Made by a program: the position numbers and the translations under genes | Shown: in pieces, positions 1 to 37,813 of the stretch | Layout: each line of letters starts with the position of its first letter | Position numbering within the stretch: position 1 is the stretch's first letter | IMG/VR virus record: IMGVR_UViG_3300032331_001543 | Coordinates: 1-39,680 of that record | Origin: a virus | Length of the DNA: 39,680 nucleotides | Reading direction: 5' to 3' (one strand) | The notes under the pieces: generated by a model | What the model was told of the DNA's origin: nothing | Seen by the model: the letters and a program-made list of their open reading frames with translations, nothing else | Databases searched by the model: none

Positions 1-75
1 ATCGTCTGGGTCTATTTGTTCTTCCAGAAACTCTGCCACAATCCGTTTCGCGCCCTCGTCAGTAAAATCAGTCAT
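1..75 (-). CDS. Partial second copy of the 93-residue hypothetical gene (first 25 codons)
   Basis: This is the 5' part of the gene that is complete at 39351-39632, present because the window overlaps itself by 123 bases. The start codon is at 75 and the frame runs off the left edge. It is not a separate gene. Confidence 0.85.
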   Translation of the reverse strand, partial: MTDFTDEGAKRIVAEFLEEQIDPDD

Positions 76-123
76 TAGTTCCCCTAATAGCTTGCTTCTG
101 TTATCTTGCTACCGATACCACTA
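1..123. repeat. Terminal direct repeat, left copy
   Basis: These 123 bases are identical to 39558-39680. The repeat starts inside the gene at 39351-39632 and ends inside the gene at 84-494, so joining the ends restores both genes without loss. This is what a contig from a circular or circularly permuted genome looks like when it overlaps itself. A true short terminal repeat in the virion is the alternative, but it would truncate one gene copy at each end. Confidence 0.95.
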
Positions 124-494
124 GCAAGAGAATAAATATCCGATAACCCAAGAGACTTGGACTCGCCCTTGTTGTTGTAAGCGATAGTAAAACCACTCAA
201 ATAACGGTACTTTTCAGATCCGCACTCCATAATGACTGCCACCCAATCATCTTGTAAGTGTTGCTTGAATACTTCGAGCCAATTAACCTCAATGTATTCT
301 TCTTTCTCGTCATCATAGTAAGTCCAAACATTACCCTCATTGTCCTCGTCATTGTCCGTGAACCCATAAAGCGTTACGCCGTCTTGCTCTTGCGTAATCA
401 CCCTTACAGGGTATGCGCCCAGCTCTTTTACAAAAGCTTCTGGGTCTTTGACTGCGAAATAATTACTTCTTGTCTTGCCGTAGAAATTAGCCAT
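84..494 (-). CDS. Conserved-looking hypothetical phage protein, 136 aa
   Basis: The protein is soluble, acidic in the middle and has no membrane segment. It begins MANFYGKTRSNYF, an opening I associate with hypothetical proteins in many phages and plasmids of Gram-positive hosts, but I know no function. The start is supported by AAAGGA just upstream and an AGATAGG element at 505-511. A perfect five-base-pair hairpin (518-531) lies before that, inside the end of the preceding gene. It overlaps the upstream gene by eight bases, consistent with one minus-strand operon. Its 3' end lies in the terminal repeat. Confidence 0.8.
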   Translation of the reverse strand: MANFYGKTRSNYFAVKDPEAFVKELGAYPVRVITQEQDGVTLYGFTDNDEDNEGNVWTYYDDEKEEYIEVNWLEVFKQHLQDDWVAVIMECGSEKYRYLSGFTIAYNNKGESKSLGLSDIYSLASGIGSKITEASY

Positions 495-744
495 TTCCTT
501 TGTTCCTATCTGTTAGTAGGGATTGTTCCCTGTTAGTACTATCTTTAGCGAGCTTAGAGTATTTGTCAAGCATTTCGACAAACTTTTTCATAGGGTTAAT
601 CGAACCCGTAACAATATCGAGCAGAATATCAAACAATACTGCCTCATAATAATTGTCGTCTTTTTCCAAATAGTCAATAATCTGTGACGGGAATACGCCG
701 TAATTCTCTTTCACGCCGTCATAAATCAGATCGAAATCACTCAT
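487..744 (-). CDS. Hypothetical protein, 85 aa
   Basis: This is a small soluble protein with no recognised domain. The first 60 residues are acidic and probably helical; the tail is polar. The start codon overlaps the stop of the upstream gene (ATGA), and AGAGAGGAAAG lies just before it, so translation is probably coupled. The last codons overlap the next gene and encode, on the RNA, the hairpin that precedes that gene. Confidence 0.7.
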   Translation of the reverse strand: MSDFDLIYDGVKENYGVFPSQIIDYLEKDDNYYEAVLFDILLDIVTGSINPMKKFVEMLDKYSKLAKDSTNREQSLLTDRNKGNG

Positions 745-935
745 CAGCTTTCCTCTCTATCCTGTAAGCGGGTACTATCTACCCACGCCGTACCCTCGCC
801 GTCAATGACCGCGACCTGAAAGCGGGTATTACCGTACGCCCGCTTAGCATCAAGCACCTTTACAGCTACCCTGAAACCCTCAATGGTGAGTAGTTTCGTC
901 TTACCTAGTTCTTGCGATAGTTCCAATGCGCTCAT
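744..935 (-). CDS. Hypothetical protein, 63 aa
   Basis: This small basic-acidic mixed protein is predicted to be mostly beta strand after a short N-terminal helix (SALELSQELG). The pattern of a short helix, a beta core and a late tryptophan followed by a charged end resembles small phage proteins of unknown role. The start ATG overlaps the preceding stop (ATGA), and GAAGGAG is placed correctly upstream. Confidence 0.7.
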   Translation of the reverse strand: MSALELSQELGKTKLLTIEGFRVAVKVLDAKRAYGNTRFQVAVIDGEGTAWVDSTRLQDREES

Positions 936-1063
936 TTTTTATTCTCCTTCTTCTCTGATGTAATAATCTTTAGCCACGCTTCATTTACTTCTTTACCGTC
1001 TATCGCTAGTAGCAGTTCGCCCGTGTGTTCATCACACTCTAGCGTTATCGTATAGGTTTTCAT
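932..1063 (-). CDS. Small hypothetical protein, 43 aa
   Basis: A 43-residue open frame starts with MKTYTITLEC at 1063. It fills the gap between two larger genes and ends in an ATGA overlap with the next start, which supports it despite its size. The sequence suggests two beta strands followed by a short helix and a lysine-rich tail. The lysine-rich tail is encoded by an AAGAAGGAG stretch that also serves as the ribosome-binding site of the next gene. Function unknown. Confidence 0.65.
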   Translation of the reverse strand: MKTYTITLECDEHTGELLLAIDGKEVNEAWLKIITSEKKENKK

Positions 1064-1219
1064 TTAGTCTGTTTCCTTTTCTGATAGTTCCTCAATTACG
1101 CCCTCGTAATAGTCGGCTAGTTCCTGTAACGCGTACCATACGCCCATTACATCTGTTTCTTCTTGGTCTTTCCGTACACCCGCCAATTTCTCGCGGGTCT
1201 TGTCCAATAGTGTCGCCAT
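1064..1219 (-). CDS. Small acidic helical protein, 51 aa
   Basis: The frame starts with MATLLDKTRE at 1219 and ends directly before the next ATG. Its start overlaps the upstream stop (TAATG). The product looks like two charged helices with no cysteine or membrane segment. Gap-free packing between neighbours is the main support. Function unknown. Confidence 0.65.
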   Translation of the reverse strand: MATLLDKTREKLAGVRKDQEETDVMGVWYALQELADYYEGVIEELSEKETD

Positions 1220-1593
1220 TAGTTCACCAAACTTTCCACGAGCTTAGCAATCTGATTAGCGACCCAATACGGCACACCAACAGCTGTTAAGTCCTCAAAC
1301 TCTAGTTCATCTGCCGTGTAATCGCTACACCCAAGCGTTAAGCATATCCACGCGCAACCCTCATCATCTAGGGTAGACACATTAGGCAACATAGGTTGCC
1401 CGCAAGGGTCACACAATACCACCGTGTCCGCTGTCCAGCTATCCGAAATACTGCGCGCATACTCTAGCCGTGCCGTGTCGGTGCTGTCCTCTATCTCTTG
1501 CCATTGTTCGGCGGTAAAGCTGTCACTATCAACCACTAGCAGATTGCTAGCATCACCATAGTTTCCGTCTTCCGCGAAATAGTGCTTACTCAT
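1219..1593 (-). CDS. Hypothetical protein with cysteine pairs, 124 aa
   Basis: An upstream in-frame ATG exists at 1626, but it lies inside the hammerhead ribozyme. The start at 1593 has AAGGGG about seven bases upstream and gives the natural beginning MSKHYFAEDGNYG. The N-terminal half resembles conserved actinophage proteins of unknown function (recognition from memory). The middle carries CDPC and later ICLTLGC cysteines, a possible but unproven zinc site. It is the first gene downstream of ribozyme 1, with a predicted leader of 58 nt after cleavage. Confidence 0.8.
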   Translation of the reverse strand: MSKHYFAEDGNYGDASNLLVVDSDSFTAEQWQEIEDSTDTARLEYARSISDSWTADTVVLCDPCGQPMLPNVSTLDDEGCAWICLTLGCSDYTADELEFEDLTAVGVPYWVANQIAKLVESLVN

Positions 1594-1619
1594 TACTTGC
1601 CCCTTATCTTTTCTAGTCT

Positions 1620-1672
1620 GTCTCATCAGTAGCGGGCGACTAACCCCGCCAGACGGCTCACGCCGTTTCGAC
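1620..1672 (-). ncRNA. Type II hammerhead ribozyme, copy 1
   Basis: Read on the minus strand, the order is GUC (1672-1670), GAAA (1669-1666), a stem III hairpin CGGC/GCCG capped by a GUGA tetraloop (1665-1654), the triplet GUC with cleavage predicted between 1652 and 1651, a seven-pair stem I (1651-1645 with 1636-1630, one G-U) and CUGAUGA (1629-1623), then GAC (1622-1620) pairing with the first GUC to make stem II. All hammerhead core positions are present, including the A15.1-U16.1 pair. Stem II is short (three pairs); UUAGUC with GACUAG at 1618-1613 is an alternative. It overlaps the stop codon of the upstream gene. Confidence 0.85.
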
Positions 1673-1821
1673 TAATTCCCCACCAACACATTAAGCCCCG
1701 CCCATAGTAGCCAGAACCCCGCCCACGCCGTCACCGCGACAGCTAACGCCTCTAACACCATAACCACCGTCTCGCCCCGCGCCGTAAGCTTGTAGCCTGT
1801 ACGATTTCGATCGAAACTCAT
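1672..1821 (-). CDS. Small single-pass membrane protein, 49 aa
   Basis: The frame starts with MSFDRNRTGYKL at 1821, overlapping the stop of the gene before it (TAATG). A charged N-terminus is followed by a hydrophobic tryptophan-rich segment at about residues 19-46, which should span the membrane once. The stop TAG lies in the first bases of ribozyme 1, so cleavage would leave this coding sequence on the upstream RNA fragment. Function unknown. Confidence 0.7.
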   Translation of the reverse strand: MSFDRNRTGYKLTARGETVVMVLEALAVAVTAWAGFWLLWAGLNVLVGN

Positions 1822-2078
1822 TAGATACCCCCAAGCTCTCGCCATAGTTTCTTATAGTCATTAAGTCGCCCCCGCAATACCGCGTACGCGCTAAACGCTT
1901 GCCCCATAGCCTCTGCCTCAGCAAAAGCTAGCAACAGTTTAGTTTCTGCTATCTCTGCCCGTAGTTCCATATTCGCCGTGAAATCTGTTTCGTAATTCTC
2001 GCTCTCGTCATTGGTTGCGCTGTCCTCGAACAGCTCTAACAATTTTTCCGTGTCTTTCTTTAGTGCCTCGATATTCAT
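1821..2078 (-). CDS. Hypothetical helical protein, 85 aa
   Basis: The protein is acidic and predicted to be almost wholly helical, with heptad-like leucine spacing in two segments (residues 3-18 and 38-80), so a coiled coil is plausible. It starts at a TAATG overlap with the upstream gene and ends in a TAATG overlap with the small membrane protein gene. No domain recognised. Confidence 0.7.
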   Translation of the reverse strand: MNIEALKKDTEKLLELFEDSATNDESENYETDFTANMELRAEIAETKLLLAFAEAEAMGQAFSAYAVLRGRLNDYKKLWRELGGI

Positions 2079-2230
2079 TACTTGCCCTCTTTCATCTCTA
2101 CTGTGAACCTTGCCACGCTCTCGCGCTTAGTGTAACCGTAATACACGCGCGTTACCCAATAACCCGCCACGATATCCGACACGACCCAAGAGCCGTTAGT
2201 GTTGCGTGTAGCTGTTGGTGCTAGTTTCAT
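2078..2230 (-). CDS. Small basic hypothetical protein, 50 aa
   Basis: A longer in-frame start exists at 2275, but it lies in the ribozyme core (the AUG of CUGAUGA). The ATG at 2230 follows AGGGAAG at close spacing, with AGATAAGG at 2242-2249, and is the better choice. The product, MKLAPTATRNTNG..., is basic and probably a small beta sheet. It is the first gene downstream of ribozyme 2. The predicted leader after cleavage is 65 nt. Function unknown. Confidence 0.75.
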   Translation of the reverse strand: MKLAPTATRNTNGSWVVSDIVAGYWVTRVYYGYTKRESVARFTVEMKEGK

Positions 2231-2267
2231 CTTCCCTGTTTCCTTATCTGTTAGCTGTTGAGCTGTT

Positions 2268-2317
2268 GCCCTCATCAGTACGCGCCTAACGCGTAGACGG
2301 CTCTCGCCGTTTCGGGC
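2268..2317 (-). ncRNA. Type II hammerhead ribozyme, copy 2
   Basis: This is the cleaner of the two copies. On the minus strand: GCCC (2317-2314), GAAA (2313-2310), stem III CGGC/GCCG with a GAGA tetraloop (2309-2298), the triplet GUC with cleavage predicted between 2296 and 2295, a perfect six-pair stem I (UACGCG 2295-2290 with CGCGUA 2284-2279, loop UUAGG), CUGAUGA (2278-2272) and GGGC (2271-2268), which pairs perfectly with the first GCCC as stem II. Every conserved core nucleotide is present. It lies in the gap between two genes of one operon. Confidence 0.92.
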
Positions 2318-2319
2318 TG

Positions 2320-2601
2320 TTACTTGCCTAACTCTATCCCTAACATTACGAGAGCTAGCTCAAGACTAACGAAAACCTGAAAGCCGAACAAGTCTTCCAA
2401 CATCTCGCCACTAGGCGCGACCTGTCGAACAGTAAAACGCTTAGGCATATCAAGCTCTCGCCTCTCGCTAGTCACAAAATAGCGACCCGCATAAACATCA
2501 CTCTCGACCTTGCTATTAAAGAACCGCATAGCCTCACGGTCGAAAAAGTGACCGCCAATAGCTTTGTGTGCTTTCTTAACTTGCGCGATATTCTCGAACA
2601 T
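2320..2601 (-). CDS. First gene of the minus-strand operon; conserved-looking hypothetical, 93 aa
   Basis: The protein opens MFENIAQVKKAHKA and contains MRFFNSKV and GRYFVTSE, a layout I recognise from small hypothetical proteins in actinobacterial phages and plasmids; no function is known to me. It is probably a mixed alpha/beta domain. AAGGA lies six bases before the ATG, within the AGATAAGG leader (2609-2616). It is the promoter-proximal gene, about 40 nt from the predicted transcription start, and ends three bases before ribozyme 2. Confidence 0.8.
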   Translation of the reverse strand: MFENIAQVKKAHKAIGGHFFDREAMRFFNSKVESDVYAGRYFVTSERRELDMPKRFTVRQVAPSGEMLEDLFGFQVFVSLELALVMLGIELGK

Positions 2602-2647
2602 CTCTTATCCTTATCTGTCTTAGTTACCCCTATTAGTAACTATCACT

Positions 2648-2676
2648 ATCAAAACACATTAGGCAACAGCTGTCAA
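2648..2676 (-). promoter_or_regulatory. Promoter of the minus-strand operon, proximal
   Basis: A perfect -35 TTGACA (2676-2671) is followed after 17 bases by a weaker -10 TTTGAT (2653-2648). Transcription would start near 2641, where the inverted repeat AGTTAC/GTAACT (2622-2641) would form a hairpin at the very 5' end of the RNA, before the AGATAAGG leader. Confidence 0.6.
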
Positions 2677-2743
2677 GCCCAAAAGCCCCAAAAAAGAAAA
2701 AAACCACTTTTATTTTTATTAGAACAAAAGTTCGAAAAAACAG

Positions 2744-2772
2744 CACCTAGCACAACACTAACCAGCTGTCAA
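2744..2772 (-). promoter_or_regulatory. Promoter of the minus-strand operon, distal
   Basis: TTGACA (2772-2767) and TAGGTG (2749-2744) are 17 bases apart. The 13 bases around the -35, CAGCTGTCAAGCC on the plus strand, recur exactly at the proximal promoter (2667-2679 and 2763-2775, 96 bases apart). The duplicated block could also be an operator. Confidence 0.55.
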
Positions 2773-2932
2773 GCCGACACGCCGAACATAACAAAATCGT
2801 TACAACAGCCACCACAAGACAGCTCTAAGACAGTCGGCGGTCTGTAATGTTCTCACTTGCTATATATACGCATTAGCAATCTGTTTTCTGTTGCTGTCTG
2901 GTGGCTATTAGTTTTGTTTTGCTATTGTTTTA

Positions 2933-2969
2933 CTTTCGCTATTGCAAGTGTTTTGCAATAACGCGAAAG
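2933..2969. repeat. Long near-perfect hairpin in the control region
   Basis: CTTTCGC (2933-2939) pairs with GCGAAAG (2963-2969) and TATTGCAA (2940-2947) with TTGCAATA (2953-2960), giving 15 base pairs with a five-base loop and a two-base bulge. It is followed on the plus strand by GGTGGGG, a loop, CCCC and a T-run. It could be an origin structure, a regulator site or a transcription barrier between the divergent units. Confidence 0.6.
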
Positions 2970-3159
2970 GGTGGGGGGCAACGACCCCAGGGTTTTTAAC
3001 TGCGCCTACCTATTGTTATTACTATCTGTTGTAATATTTTTTCTAAAGTAACTGGGAATGGTTTTTGTTTGTTTGTAAGGGTTTTTGGGGGTTGATCTAA
3101 AATAGTTTGTACAAATTTTGGTAAAGTGCGGGATAGACTGCTTTTATTCGCCCTTAGTA

Positions 3160-3165
3160 TATAGT
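3160..3165 (+). promoter_or_regulatory. Possible -10 element for the structural operon
   Basis: TATAGT is identical to the -10 of the strong early promoter at 27849-27854. No good -35 is present at 17 bases; the nearest is TAGACT, 20 bases away. If used, the leader would be about 200 nt and would include the hairpin GTTCGC/GCGAAC at 3212-3238. The phage sigma factor or WhiB protein might be needed here (inference). Confidence 0.3.
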
Positions 3166-3211
3166 GAGGGGTTTTAATTATTTGAAACCCCGAACCTGCG
3201 TTTACACTTCG

Positions 3212-3238
3212 GTTCGCGAAGCCTTAAGCGTAGCGAAC
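3212..3238 (+). other. Leader hairpin before the terminase gene
   Basis: GTTCGC (3212-3217) and GCGAAC (3233-3238) form a six-pair stem with a 15-base loop, about 130 bases before the terminase start. No T-run follows, so it is not an ordinary terminator; a role in leader RNA stability or control is possible. Confidence 0.4.
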
Positions 3239-3368
3239 TGGTAACAATAACCTCTATGGCAGTCGGTTATTGTGTACTACTAAATTCTTCTAGTTTTGTT
3301 ACCAAGGTCTTAACCCAAGGCTACTACTAATGTCGGCTTTCTCCTGGGGTCGAAGCCGAAGGGATGTT

Positions 3369-14849: not shown

Positions 14850-14928
14850 GGGTGTGACTGGTTAGACCGATTCTTAAATCCGCATGACGGACAGAAACGG
14901 AACGTGGGTTCGATTCCCACCACATCCA
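14850..14928 (+). ncRNA. tRNA-like element
   Basis: GGGTGTG (14850-14856) pairs with CACATCC (14921-14927) as a seven-pair acceptor stem, followed by A as discriminator. GTGGG-TTCGATT-CCCAC (14904-14920) is a textbook T arm. The middle does not fold as a normal tRNA: there is no convincing D arm, no five-pair anticodon stem with U33, and the best local hairpin is TCCG-CATGA-CGGA (14879-14891). No CCA is encoded. It could be a decayed tRNA, an element that mimics a tRNA, or a remnant of an attachment site; no integrase is present. Confidence 0.45.
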
Positions 14929-14931
14929 CTC

Positions 14932-35330: not shown

Positions 35331-36002
35331 TTGAATAGTGAACTATTAGAAGAAGTAACCGAGATCGCTGCCAGTGTAGCGAAACAAATACACCCCCGAT
35401 ACGCAGTCTACTTTGAGCCACAAGACCTGAAACAAGAACTTCTCCTATGGTCACTAAACCACGAACACAAAATAGTTGAATGGTTAAACCCAGACCAAGA
35501 AGTTTGGGAACGCAAAGCAGGCATACGACAACTAGCCAAAAGTTTTCAACGAGAAGCAGACAAAATCTGTCGAGCCGCCAAAGCACGTAAAACAGGCTAC
35601 GAAATCCATGACGAATACTTTTACAGTCGCGGAGTACTCGAAGAACTCCTAACGAACCTAGACGAAATAGAAGCACAACAAACCGGCATGCAGGTACGAG
35701 TATCAGGTGGTGGTAGTGACCCCGCAGCAGGTAACAACATCGCAGCGAGTGTAGCTGATGTACGCAAAGCGTTAGACCAACTAGACCCAATGGATAGACT
35801 AATGGTTGAAATGAAATACCAGGAACAACTCACCTACAAACAGATCTCCGAAACTGTGGACCTGTCAGACAGCACTGTCCACCGCCGTGTATCTGGAGCG
35901 TTAAACCGTATGGTTAAGTTTCTTGGTGGCGACAACCCGTACACGGGCAGTAACTACCGTAAAACAATTAGTAACGCCCAAGCACAAGCTATGACAGAAT
36001 AG
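35331..36002 (+). CDS. Phage-encoded sigma-70-like factor, 223 aa
   Basis: The start is TTG, ten bases after AAAGG. Residues 28-45 (FEPQDLKQELLLWSL) look like sigma region 2, and 148-195 (LDQLDPMDRLMVEMKYQEQLTYKQISETVDLSDSTVHRRVSGAL, abbreviated here by its ends) contain a region 4 helix-turn-helix. A charged linker lies between. It probably redirects host RNA polymerase to late phage promoters. It is the last gene before the convergent terminators. Codons are strongly A/C-ended. Confidence 0.82.
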   Translation: MNSELLEEVTEIAASVAKQIHPRYAVYFEPQDLKQELLLWSLNHEHKIVEWLNPDQEVWERKAGIRQLAKSFQREADKICRAAKARKTGYEIHDEYFYSRGVLEELLTNLDEIEAQQTGMQVRVSGGGSDPAAGNNIAASVADVRKALDQLDPMDRLMVEMKYQEQLTYKQISETVDLSDSTVHRRVSGALNRMVKFLGGDNPYTGSNYRKTISNAQAQAMTE

Positions 36003-37002: not shown

Positions 37003-37226
37003 TGGCGCTCTTCCGCATAATCTAACCAAGTTACAGGGGTATCTGACGGTACGAACGACAGGTAGCCTAACCCTTTTTTAATGTACGCTTCCATAGTGCT
37101 GTCAGAGCGTGGCGTAGGCGTACCTATGTGAAGGTGTAAGTGTTGTGCCAGATCGCGCTCAAAATCGCTCCTAGCCTGCTTCCTGCCCCGCCTGCGGGCT
37201 TTCCATAATCCTATTTGCCTGCCCAT
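36999..37226 (-). CDS. Basic hypothetical protein, 75 aa
   Basis: The start at 37226 follows AGAGG and gives MGRQIGLWKARRRGRKQARSD, strongly basic and possibly nucleic-acid binding. A longer frame from 37262 would overlap the WhiB gene by 52 bases and has no good site. With the chosen start the overlap is 16 bases. The C-terminal half (YIKKGLGYLSFVPSDTPVTW) is mixed beta. Function unknown. Confidence 0.65.
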   Translation of the reverse strand: MGRQIGLWKARRRGRKQARSDFERDLAQHLHLHIGTPTPRSDSTMEAYIKKGLGYLSFVPSDTPVTWLDYAEERQ

Positions 37227-37813
37227 AACCGTACCTCTTCTCTTAGTTGTTGATGTATCCATAATTTTACTCTCTGGCGTACGGTAAAAGCTATTTTCAT
37301 CTTGGTTCTTTGGGCTACGCCCCGCCTACTAGCACCGTATCTGACGATAATTCGTTCGCCTGGAAGTAGTCCGCCCCAGATCCCTGTGTTGATTTCTAGG
37401 TCTGTTAGCCCTACTTTTAGGCATTGTTCTTTTACAGGGCAAGTACCACATAGCGTTAATGCTCTGGCTAGTCGTGGTATGTCTTGATCTTCGACATTGT
37501 GGTCTAAGAACCACGCGTCAGCGTCTTGGTCGCCGTTACAGTTTGCTTCGTACCAGATTGGGTCACCGTCTAGGTTCAGGGCAAGGATCAGTTCATCTGG
37601 CAAGGGTTTGCGGGTATCTACTGCTCGCTCTTGCTTGTTTAGTTCCTTCCGGGATAGCATTTCGTTCGATTTCTCTAGCCCAGCTTCCGTTACAGCTACT
37701 CGTTTAGTGTCTGTCTGCACTATGTAGAGCGTGTTACCGTTATTTACGGTAATATCTTCTACTATTCCTGCTTCTAGCCCTACGGATACTGCTGTACCTA
37801 TTCTTGGTTTCAT
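37211..37813 (-). CDS. WhiB-family iron-sulfur regulator with N-terminal extension
   Basis: Residues about 85-157 are a WhiB domain: C92, C122, C125 and C131 fit the C-Xn-C-X2-C-X5-C ligands of a [4Fe-4S] cluster, and GIWGG (144-148) is the turn before the C-terminal basic helix (IIVRYGASRRG). WhiB proteins occur in actinobacteria and their phages and bind the main sigma factor. The first 60 residues look like a small beta-barrel (GTAVSVGLEAGIVEDI) and are unusual for the family, as is the 40-residue tail. It could reprogram host promoters or block superinfection, as reported for the TM4 phage WhiB protein. Confidence 0.93.
   Translation of the reverse strand: MKPRIGTAVSVGLEAGIVEDITVNNGNTLYIVQTDTKRVAVTEAGLEKSNEMLSRKELNKQERAVDTRKPLPDELILALNLDGDPIWYEANCNGDQDADAWFLDHNVEDQDIPRLARALTLCGTCPVKEQCLKVGLTDLEINTGIWGGLLPGERIIVRYGASRRGVAQRTKMKIAFTVRQRVKLWIHQQLREEVRLWAGK

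Follow-up and report, generated by a model that had tools for sequence, protein, structure and literature searches.

What the hammerhead ribozymes of phages are for has been termed an open question (PMC6155905). The window analysed here, a 39,680-nucleotide stretch of viral DNA (positions 1 to 39,680 of IMG/VR record IMGVR_UViG_3300032331_001543), poses that question at a defined place: what does a hammerhead do between the small genes of a leftward phage operon?

A type II hammerhead behind the first gene of the operon

A first-pass annotation of the window had placed a complete type II hammerhead ribozyme on the minus strand at 2268-2317 (HHR1). This was borne out: the core and stems can be read directly, a covariance model of relatives scores the motif at 68.7 bits, and shuffled sequence yields nothing comparable. 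Every element that the annotation had named is present and in order. Reading the minus strand from 2317 to 2268, the first strand of stem II (GCCC, 2317-2314) leads into GAAA (2313-2310), which supplies G12, A13, A14 and A15.1. Stem III pairs CGGC (2309-2306) with GCCG (2301-2298) around a GAGA loop, and is followed by UC, that is, U16.1 (2297) and C17 (2296). Stem I joins UACGCG (2295-2290) to CGCGUA (2284-2279) across the loop UUAGG, after which CUGAUGA (2278-2272) precedes the second strand of stem II (GGGC, 2271-2268). Direct reading also gives the predicted cut at the same place, between 2296 and 2295, which puts it 65 nt ahead of the AUG at 2230.

Folding 2260-2325 to minimum energy reproduces this hammerhead structure exactly; with a z of -1.9, folding energy by itself is modest evidence. 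With a type II descriptor comprising the core and three stems, the stem scores of two window sites add up to 15 and 14, compared with four matches in total, scoring 9-10, when the window was shuffled 400 times by dinucleotides. A descriptor scan of both window strands for type II hammerheads and for hammerheads with a locally closed stem II found nothing beyond these two sites, which are HHR1 and a second motif, HHR2, at 1612-1673 on the minus strand. The covariance model R2, for which 11 relatives and no window sequence were used, matched HHR1 at 68.7 bits (E 1.7e-17) and HHR2 at 34.5 bits (E 1.1e-7) and had no other match in the window. Both motifs contain the conserved core CUGANGA ... GAAA ... 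UH with the A15.1-U16.1 pair, and both have three stems, of which I and III are loop-closed and II is open.

The Rfam Hammerhead_II model (RF02276), which the first-pass annotation had proposed as a check, matched the window but separated the two motifs: HHR2 scored 48.3 bits, above the cut-off of 37, whereas HHR1 scored 28.3 bits and fell below it. The lower score of HHR1 is probably due to a missing loop I-tail pseudoknot, the usual stabiliser of type II hammerheads (PMC3088659). A search for this pseudoknot in HHR1 found none near the motif, the best candidate being 5 bp formed with a site 18 nt into the tail, and because this is not convincing, the predicted rate of HHR1 cleavage at low Mg2+ is in doubt. 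By every testable sequence criterion HHR1 is a type II hammerhead, and it is predicted to cleave itself.

The single hammerhead of the first-pass annotation is therefore real but one of a pair, and its partner had been overlooked. In HHR2, also on the minus strand, stem II is formed by 1672-1670 and 1622-1620, GAAA lies at 1669-1666 and CUGAUGA at 1629-1623, and the predicted cut falls between 1652 and 1651. Its loop I and tail form a 6-bp pseudoknot (UUAGUC, 1643-1638, with GACUAG, 1618-1613), and HHR2 fits the pseudoknot consensus of published type II hammerheads (PMC3088659).

Two ribozymes would divide the operon between its cistrons

HHR1 and HHR2 each abut the stop codon of the preceding ORF, and three small ORFs lie between them, all on the minus strand. 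The first gene of the operon (2320-2601, 93 aa, DUF7447 / phrog_4655) ends in a UAA 2 nt before HHR1; no relatives of this gene were found in viral contigs. The block between the ribozymes begins with a 50-aa ORF (2078-2230), which has homologues in L042, L045 and L061 (L-numbers are labels for viral contigs). It continues with an 85-aa ORF (1821-2078) and a 49-aa membrane-type ORF with an LTxRGE motif (1672-1821), whose UAG overlaps HHR2. After HHR2 comes a 124-aa ORF (1219-1593, minus strand), with its AUG 58 nt past the predicted cut. The first-pass annotation was right to set the ribozyme in a phage operon, but it overstated the case in calling the gene context clear: the flanking genes are small and uncharacterised, and they are swapped between phages. 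Scans for promoters and terminators in the ribozyme region gave nothing above shuffles, and a DNA similarity search with positions 1-3300 of the window against named phages gave no match.

In both window ribozymes the AUG within CUGAUGA (at 2275 and 1626, minus strand) shares the reading frame of the ORF that follows, so gene callers will place ORF starts inside the ribozyme. As a candidate for the true start this AUG was set aside, being neither kept in relatives nor provided with a Shine-Dalgarno site.

The window's terminase is 45% identical to those of Streptomyces phages of the Immanuel3 group, and the terminase, the major capsid protein and a WhiB-like gene indicate that the host is probably actinobacterial. 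The WhiB-like regulator is encoded at 37211-37813 (minus strand), and a sigma-factor-like protein at 35331-36002 (plus strand). Ahead of the capsid gene block, at 14850-14931 (plus strand), lies a tRNA-like RNA with a 7-bp acceptor-type stem and a perfect T-arm (GUGGGUUCGAUUCCCAC); it scores 38.9 bits against the Rfam tmRNA model (cut-off 47, E 2.9e-12), and ARAGORN calls it neither tRNA nor tmRNA.

We consider it likely, from the structures and positions of the two motifs, that HHR1 and HHR2 cleave themselves and thereby cut the leftward polycistronic mRNA in cis between cistrons. The cuts would fall just behind the stops of the 93-aa and 49-aa ORFs and would yield three RNAs: the first cistron, a middle RNA of 644 nt with three ORFs (2295-1652, from the predicted cut sites) and what remains of the operon. 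Upstream products would each have the stem III hairpin and a 2',3'-cyclic phosphate at the 3' end, and each downstream product would begin with a 5'-OH followed immediately by the stem I hairpin. Both new ends would be capped by hairpins, and the 5' end would lack the phosphate preferred by RNase E-type decay. Such end protection would be expected to set mRNA abundance and stability for each cistron separately, in a module with fast gene turnover.

HHR1 and HHR2 represent two structural classes

On sequence, HHR1 is assigned to a class of type II hammerheads that has a UWRGG pentaloop and no pseudoknot, and HHR2 to the pseudoknot class. A pattern that fixes solely the core and the loop CGUWRGGCG had at least 120 matches in viral contigs, versus 8 in the genomes of 84,980 prokaryote species. 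The features that distinguish HHR1 recur in 97 unique viral sequences. The four outer pairs of stem I, which lie outside the pattern, are paired in 97/97 of these, the outer strands occurring in 42 different combinations, and stem II is exactly 4 bp long in 95/97 (one inserted U in 30). Among other type II hammerheads stem II is mostly 2-5 bp. A loop-tail pseudoknot can be drawn in 23/97 pentaloop sequences compared with 18.0 when tails are swapped, no clear excess, whereas in the other type II hammerheads 88/118 compares with 58.9, an excess.

In the pentaloop class, loop I and the length of stem II are both fixed, which suggests that these two elements touch directly. None of 20 sampled pentaloop-class loci reached the Rfam cut-off, the listed scores being 26-33 bits, which argues that the cut-off misses this sub-class rather than disproving it and suggests that it undercounts phage hammerheads. 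One viral contig of 67,627 bases (L086) holds, within the 8,523 bases covered, at least five type II hammerheads on one strand over a few kilobases, four of them matching the pentaloop pattern.

Covariation was also seen in an alignment of 14 sequences: 15/15 pairs are kept throughout and 11 pairs have changes on both sides, although the 100% pairing is partly by construction, the set having mostly been picked by a descriptor that requires stems. The 97-99 pattern matches, in which the outer pairs of stem I and stem II are not imposed, are the cleaner test of pairing.

Hammerheads and hairpins occupy the same slot behind stop codons

At 13 sites the beginning of the motif falls between -5 and +1 nt relative to the stop codon of the upstream ORF (HHR2 being assigned to the UAG of the 49-aa ORF), and where the contig continues, 20-41 nt separate its end from a start codon, in most cases with a Shine-Dalgarno-like site. 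In other viral contigs, 105/127 type II hammerheads among the matches listed start -12 to +8 nt from an ORF stop, compared with 159/2000 random places, and in a second set 79/99 among the matches listed start near an ORF stop; these counts are samples from pattern scans, with ORFs called mechanically.

Long hairpins (14-26 bp) take up like slots in the leftward operon of relatives. We counted 68 in 56 upstream regions, versus 5 after shuffling; the shuffle count was used because the stretch downstream of the terminase start, with 2 hairpins, is nearly all coding and makes an unfair control. Most of them (50/68) begin at most 25 nt after an ORF stop, and they occur in relatives without a ribozyme and also in some with one. 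L003, L005, L015, L017, L019 and others have hairpins of 16-26 bp right behind stops, on the minus strand upstream of the terminase gene, often with the base GGAUAGUY...RGCUAUCUGG and several per genome. A hairpin with a conserved CCCCUAA loop and flanking UUGA motifs is present on the minus strand in L030 (as CCCUAA), L035, L038 (996-1022), L039, L041-L043 and L045-L047, mostly behind the LTxRGE gene; it had no Rfam match in the relatives scanned.

The two kinds of element replace each other behind homologous genes. A gene ending in ..WTTNPFGN* is followed by a hammerhead in L064 and by a 15-bp hairpin in L068-L070, and the slot behind the LTxRGE gene is taken by HHR2 in the window and in many relatives by the hairpin with the CCCCUAA loop; in L004, whose stop and start codons overlap there, it is empty. 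This interchange suggests that hammerhead and hairpin share an RNA-level task, with the hairpins of relatives as no more than candidates for processing. The swap and the hairpins' position could alternatively mean that the hammerheads, too, are simply stable stem-loops behind stops, serving in 3'-end protection or as a site for cutting by a protein, with catalysis incidental or weak. We regard this as unlikely, because the catalytic core stays the same as the stems vary, although a plain hairpin would have no use for it, and because stem III of HHR1 is just 4-5 bp long.

Returning to self-cleavage between cistrons as the preferred reading, we tentatively advance a wider proposal, which we hold to be possible rather than probable. 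It has two parts. HHR1 would belong to a widespread, mainly phage-borne sub-class missed by Rfam, with a fixed 6-bp stem I whose inner pairs are C-G and G-C, a UWRGG loop, a stem II of exactly 4 bp and no pseudoknot, and with loop I probably docking on stem II through a contact that has not been described. In the phages examined here, hammerheads and hairpins would be interchangeable intercistronic cutters at stop codons, where a terminating ribosome would cover stem II and GAAA and so make cutting depend on translation.

Ribozymes are conserved islands between changing genes

Descriptor, Rfam and model R1 place a hammerhead ahead of the terminase gene, on the strand opposite to it, in 14 of 80 viral-contig relatives by terminase; 15/52 terminase-related phages have one at the corresponding operon position, with unrelated genes on either side. 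On a terminase tree of 52 rows, 15 of them with a ribozyme, the presence label changes at least 10 times, a number that may be inflated by ribozyme absence in short fragments. L003, whose terminase is 96% identical to that of the window, has no ribozyme in its 33.7-kb record. Between the window and L004 the ribozyme is a 51-bp block of 92% identity whose adjoining genes do not match, and between L040 and L043 about 76 nt of ribozyme plus leader are essentially identical and flanked by unrelated ORFs. Other Rfam families sought in the slot of 13 relatives were not found; model R1 had no match over the terminase regions of ct2KA10 and ZooBear, nor did RF02276 over the whole ZooBear record.

Isolated islands of identity between unrelated ORFs, together with frequent changes of presence on the tree, would also be expected if the motif were a DNA-level junction for the exchange of gene cassettes by short homology. 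The paired double changes and the strand-specific orientation behind stops speak instead of selection on RNA and make this account improbable, although a junction role could coexist with an RNA role. Least probable is that the pair frees the 644-nt middle RNA for ligation into a circular or otherwise persistent RNA: the block is flanked by two hammerheads and its ends, 5'-OH and 2',3'-cyclic phosphate, would be compatible, but relatives mostly have a single copy in the slot, and Perreault et al. sought circular and spliced products and found none (PMC3088659).

Cutting of the mRNA between cistrons is thus the reading that we favour. That the ribozyme is kept amid changing genes, sits at stops and shares its slot with hairpins points to mRNA cutting rather than to regulation of a single gene. 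Structure, covariation, position, island conservation and hairpin interchange are what the sequences show; catalysis, end protection and an effect on expression are inferred. Against it stand HHR1, with no convincing pseudoknot and a score below the Rfam cut-off, and the absence of a ribozyme from so close a relative as L003. The window in this way narrows the question of what phage hammerheads are for.

Comparison with known systems

A 2011 paper (PMC3088659) described type II hammerheads and their clusters in prophages and put forward the idea that they process transcripts. The same work reported that tandem prophage hammerheads cleave in vitro during transcription, and for Agrobacterium also in E. 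coli, and that hammerheads occur beside the antirestriction gene ardA. The window ribozymes are like the type II hammerheads of RF02276 and PMC3088659 in their core, in their stem order (open at stem II) and in their intergenic location in phage operons; there, too, several copies flank short gene blocks, with a proposed function in the processing of long transcripts. HHR1 differs in its 17-nt stem I region, its pentaloop UUAGG, its 4-bp stem II and its lack of a near-tail pseudoknot. The pentaloop sub-class, the stop-codon statistic, the hairpin swap and the arrays described below appear new in the sources searched, although some pentaloop sequences may already stand in the supplementary alignments of PMC3088659.

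The Streptomyces phages R4 and Spernnie, which were reached via a weak DNA match, have nine type II hammerheads each above the Rfam cut-off, all on the minus strand. They share with the window a leftward small-gene actinophage operon with type II hammerheads between genes, and differ from it in having nine per genome rather than two and in belonging to a different phage subfamily. The literature searched contained no paper that connects R4 with hammerheads. In R4 (NC_019414) the annotated ORFs gp60.1, gp67.1 and gp75.1 (41762-41845, 44125-44217 and 47073-47174) sit over hammerheads, and another hammerhead overlaps the start annotated for gp72 (45302-45832), an Ocr-like antirestriction gene; these ORFs and this start are probable annotation errors. 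R4 is a cultured phage with S. coelicolor as its listed host, and with nine copies it makes the question of hammerhead function testable.

In T7-type early mRNA, RNase III processing hairpins are structured elements between cistrons at which polycistronic phage mRNA is split. The hairpins of the window's relatives are only candidates for processing of this RNase III type. Hammerheads would split polycistronic phage mRNA as the T7 hairpins do, but cleavage of the T7 hairpins takes a host protein, which a self-cutting hammerhead does without.
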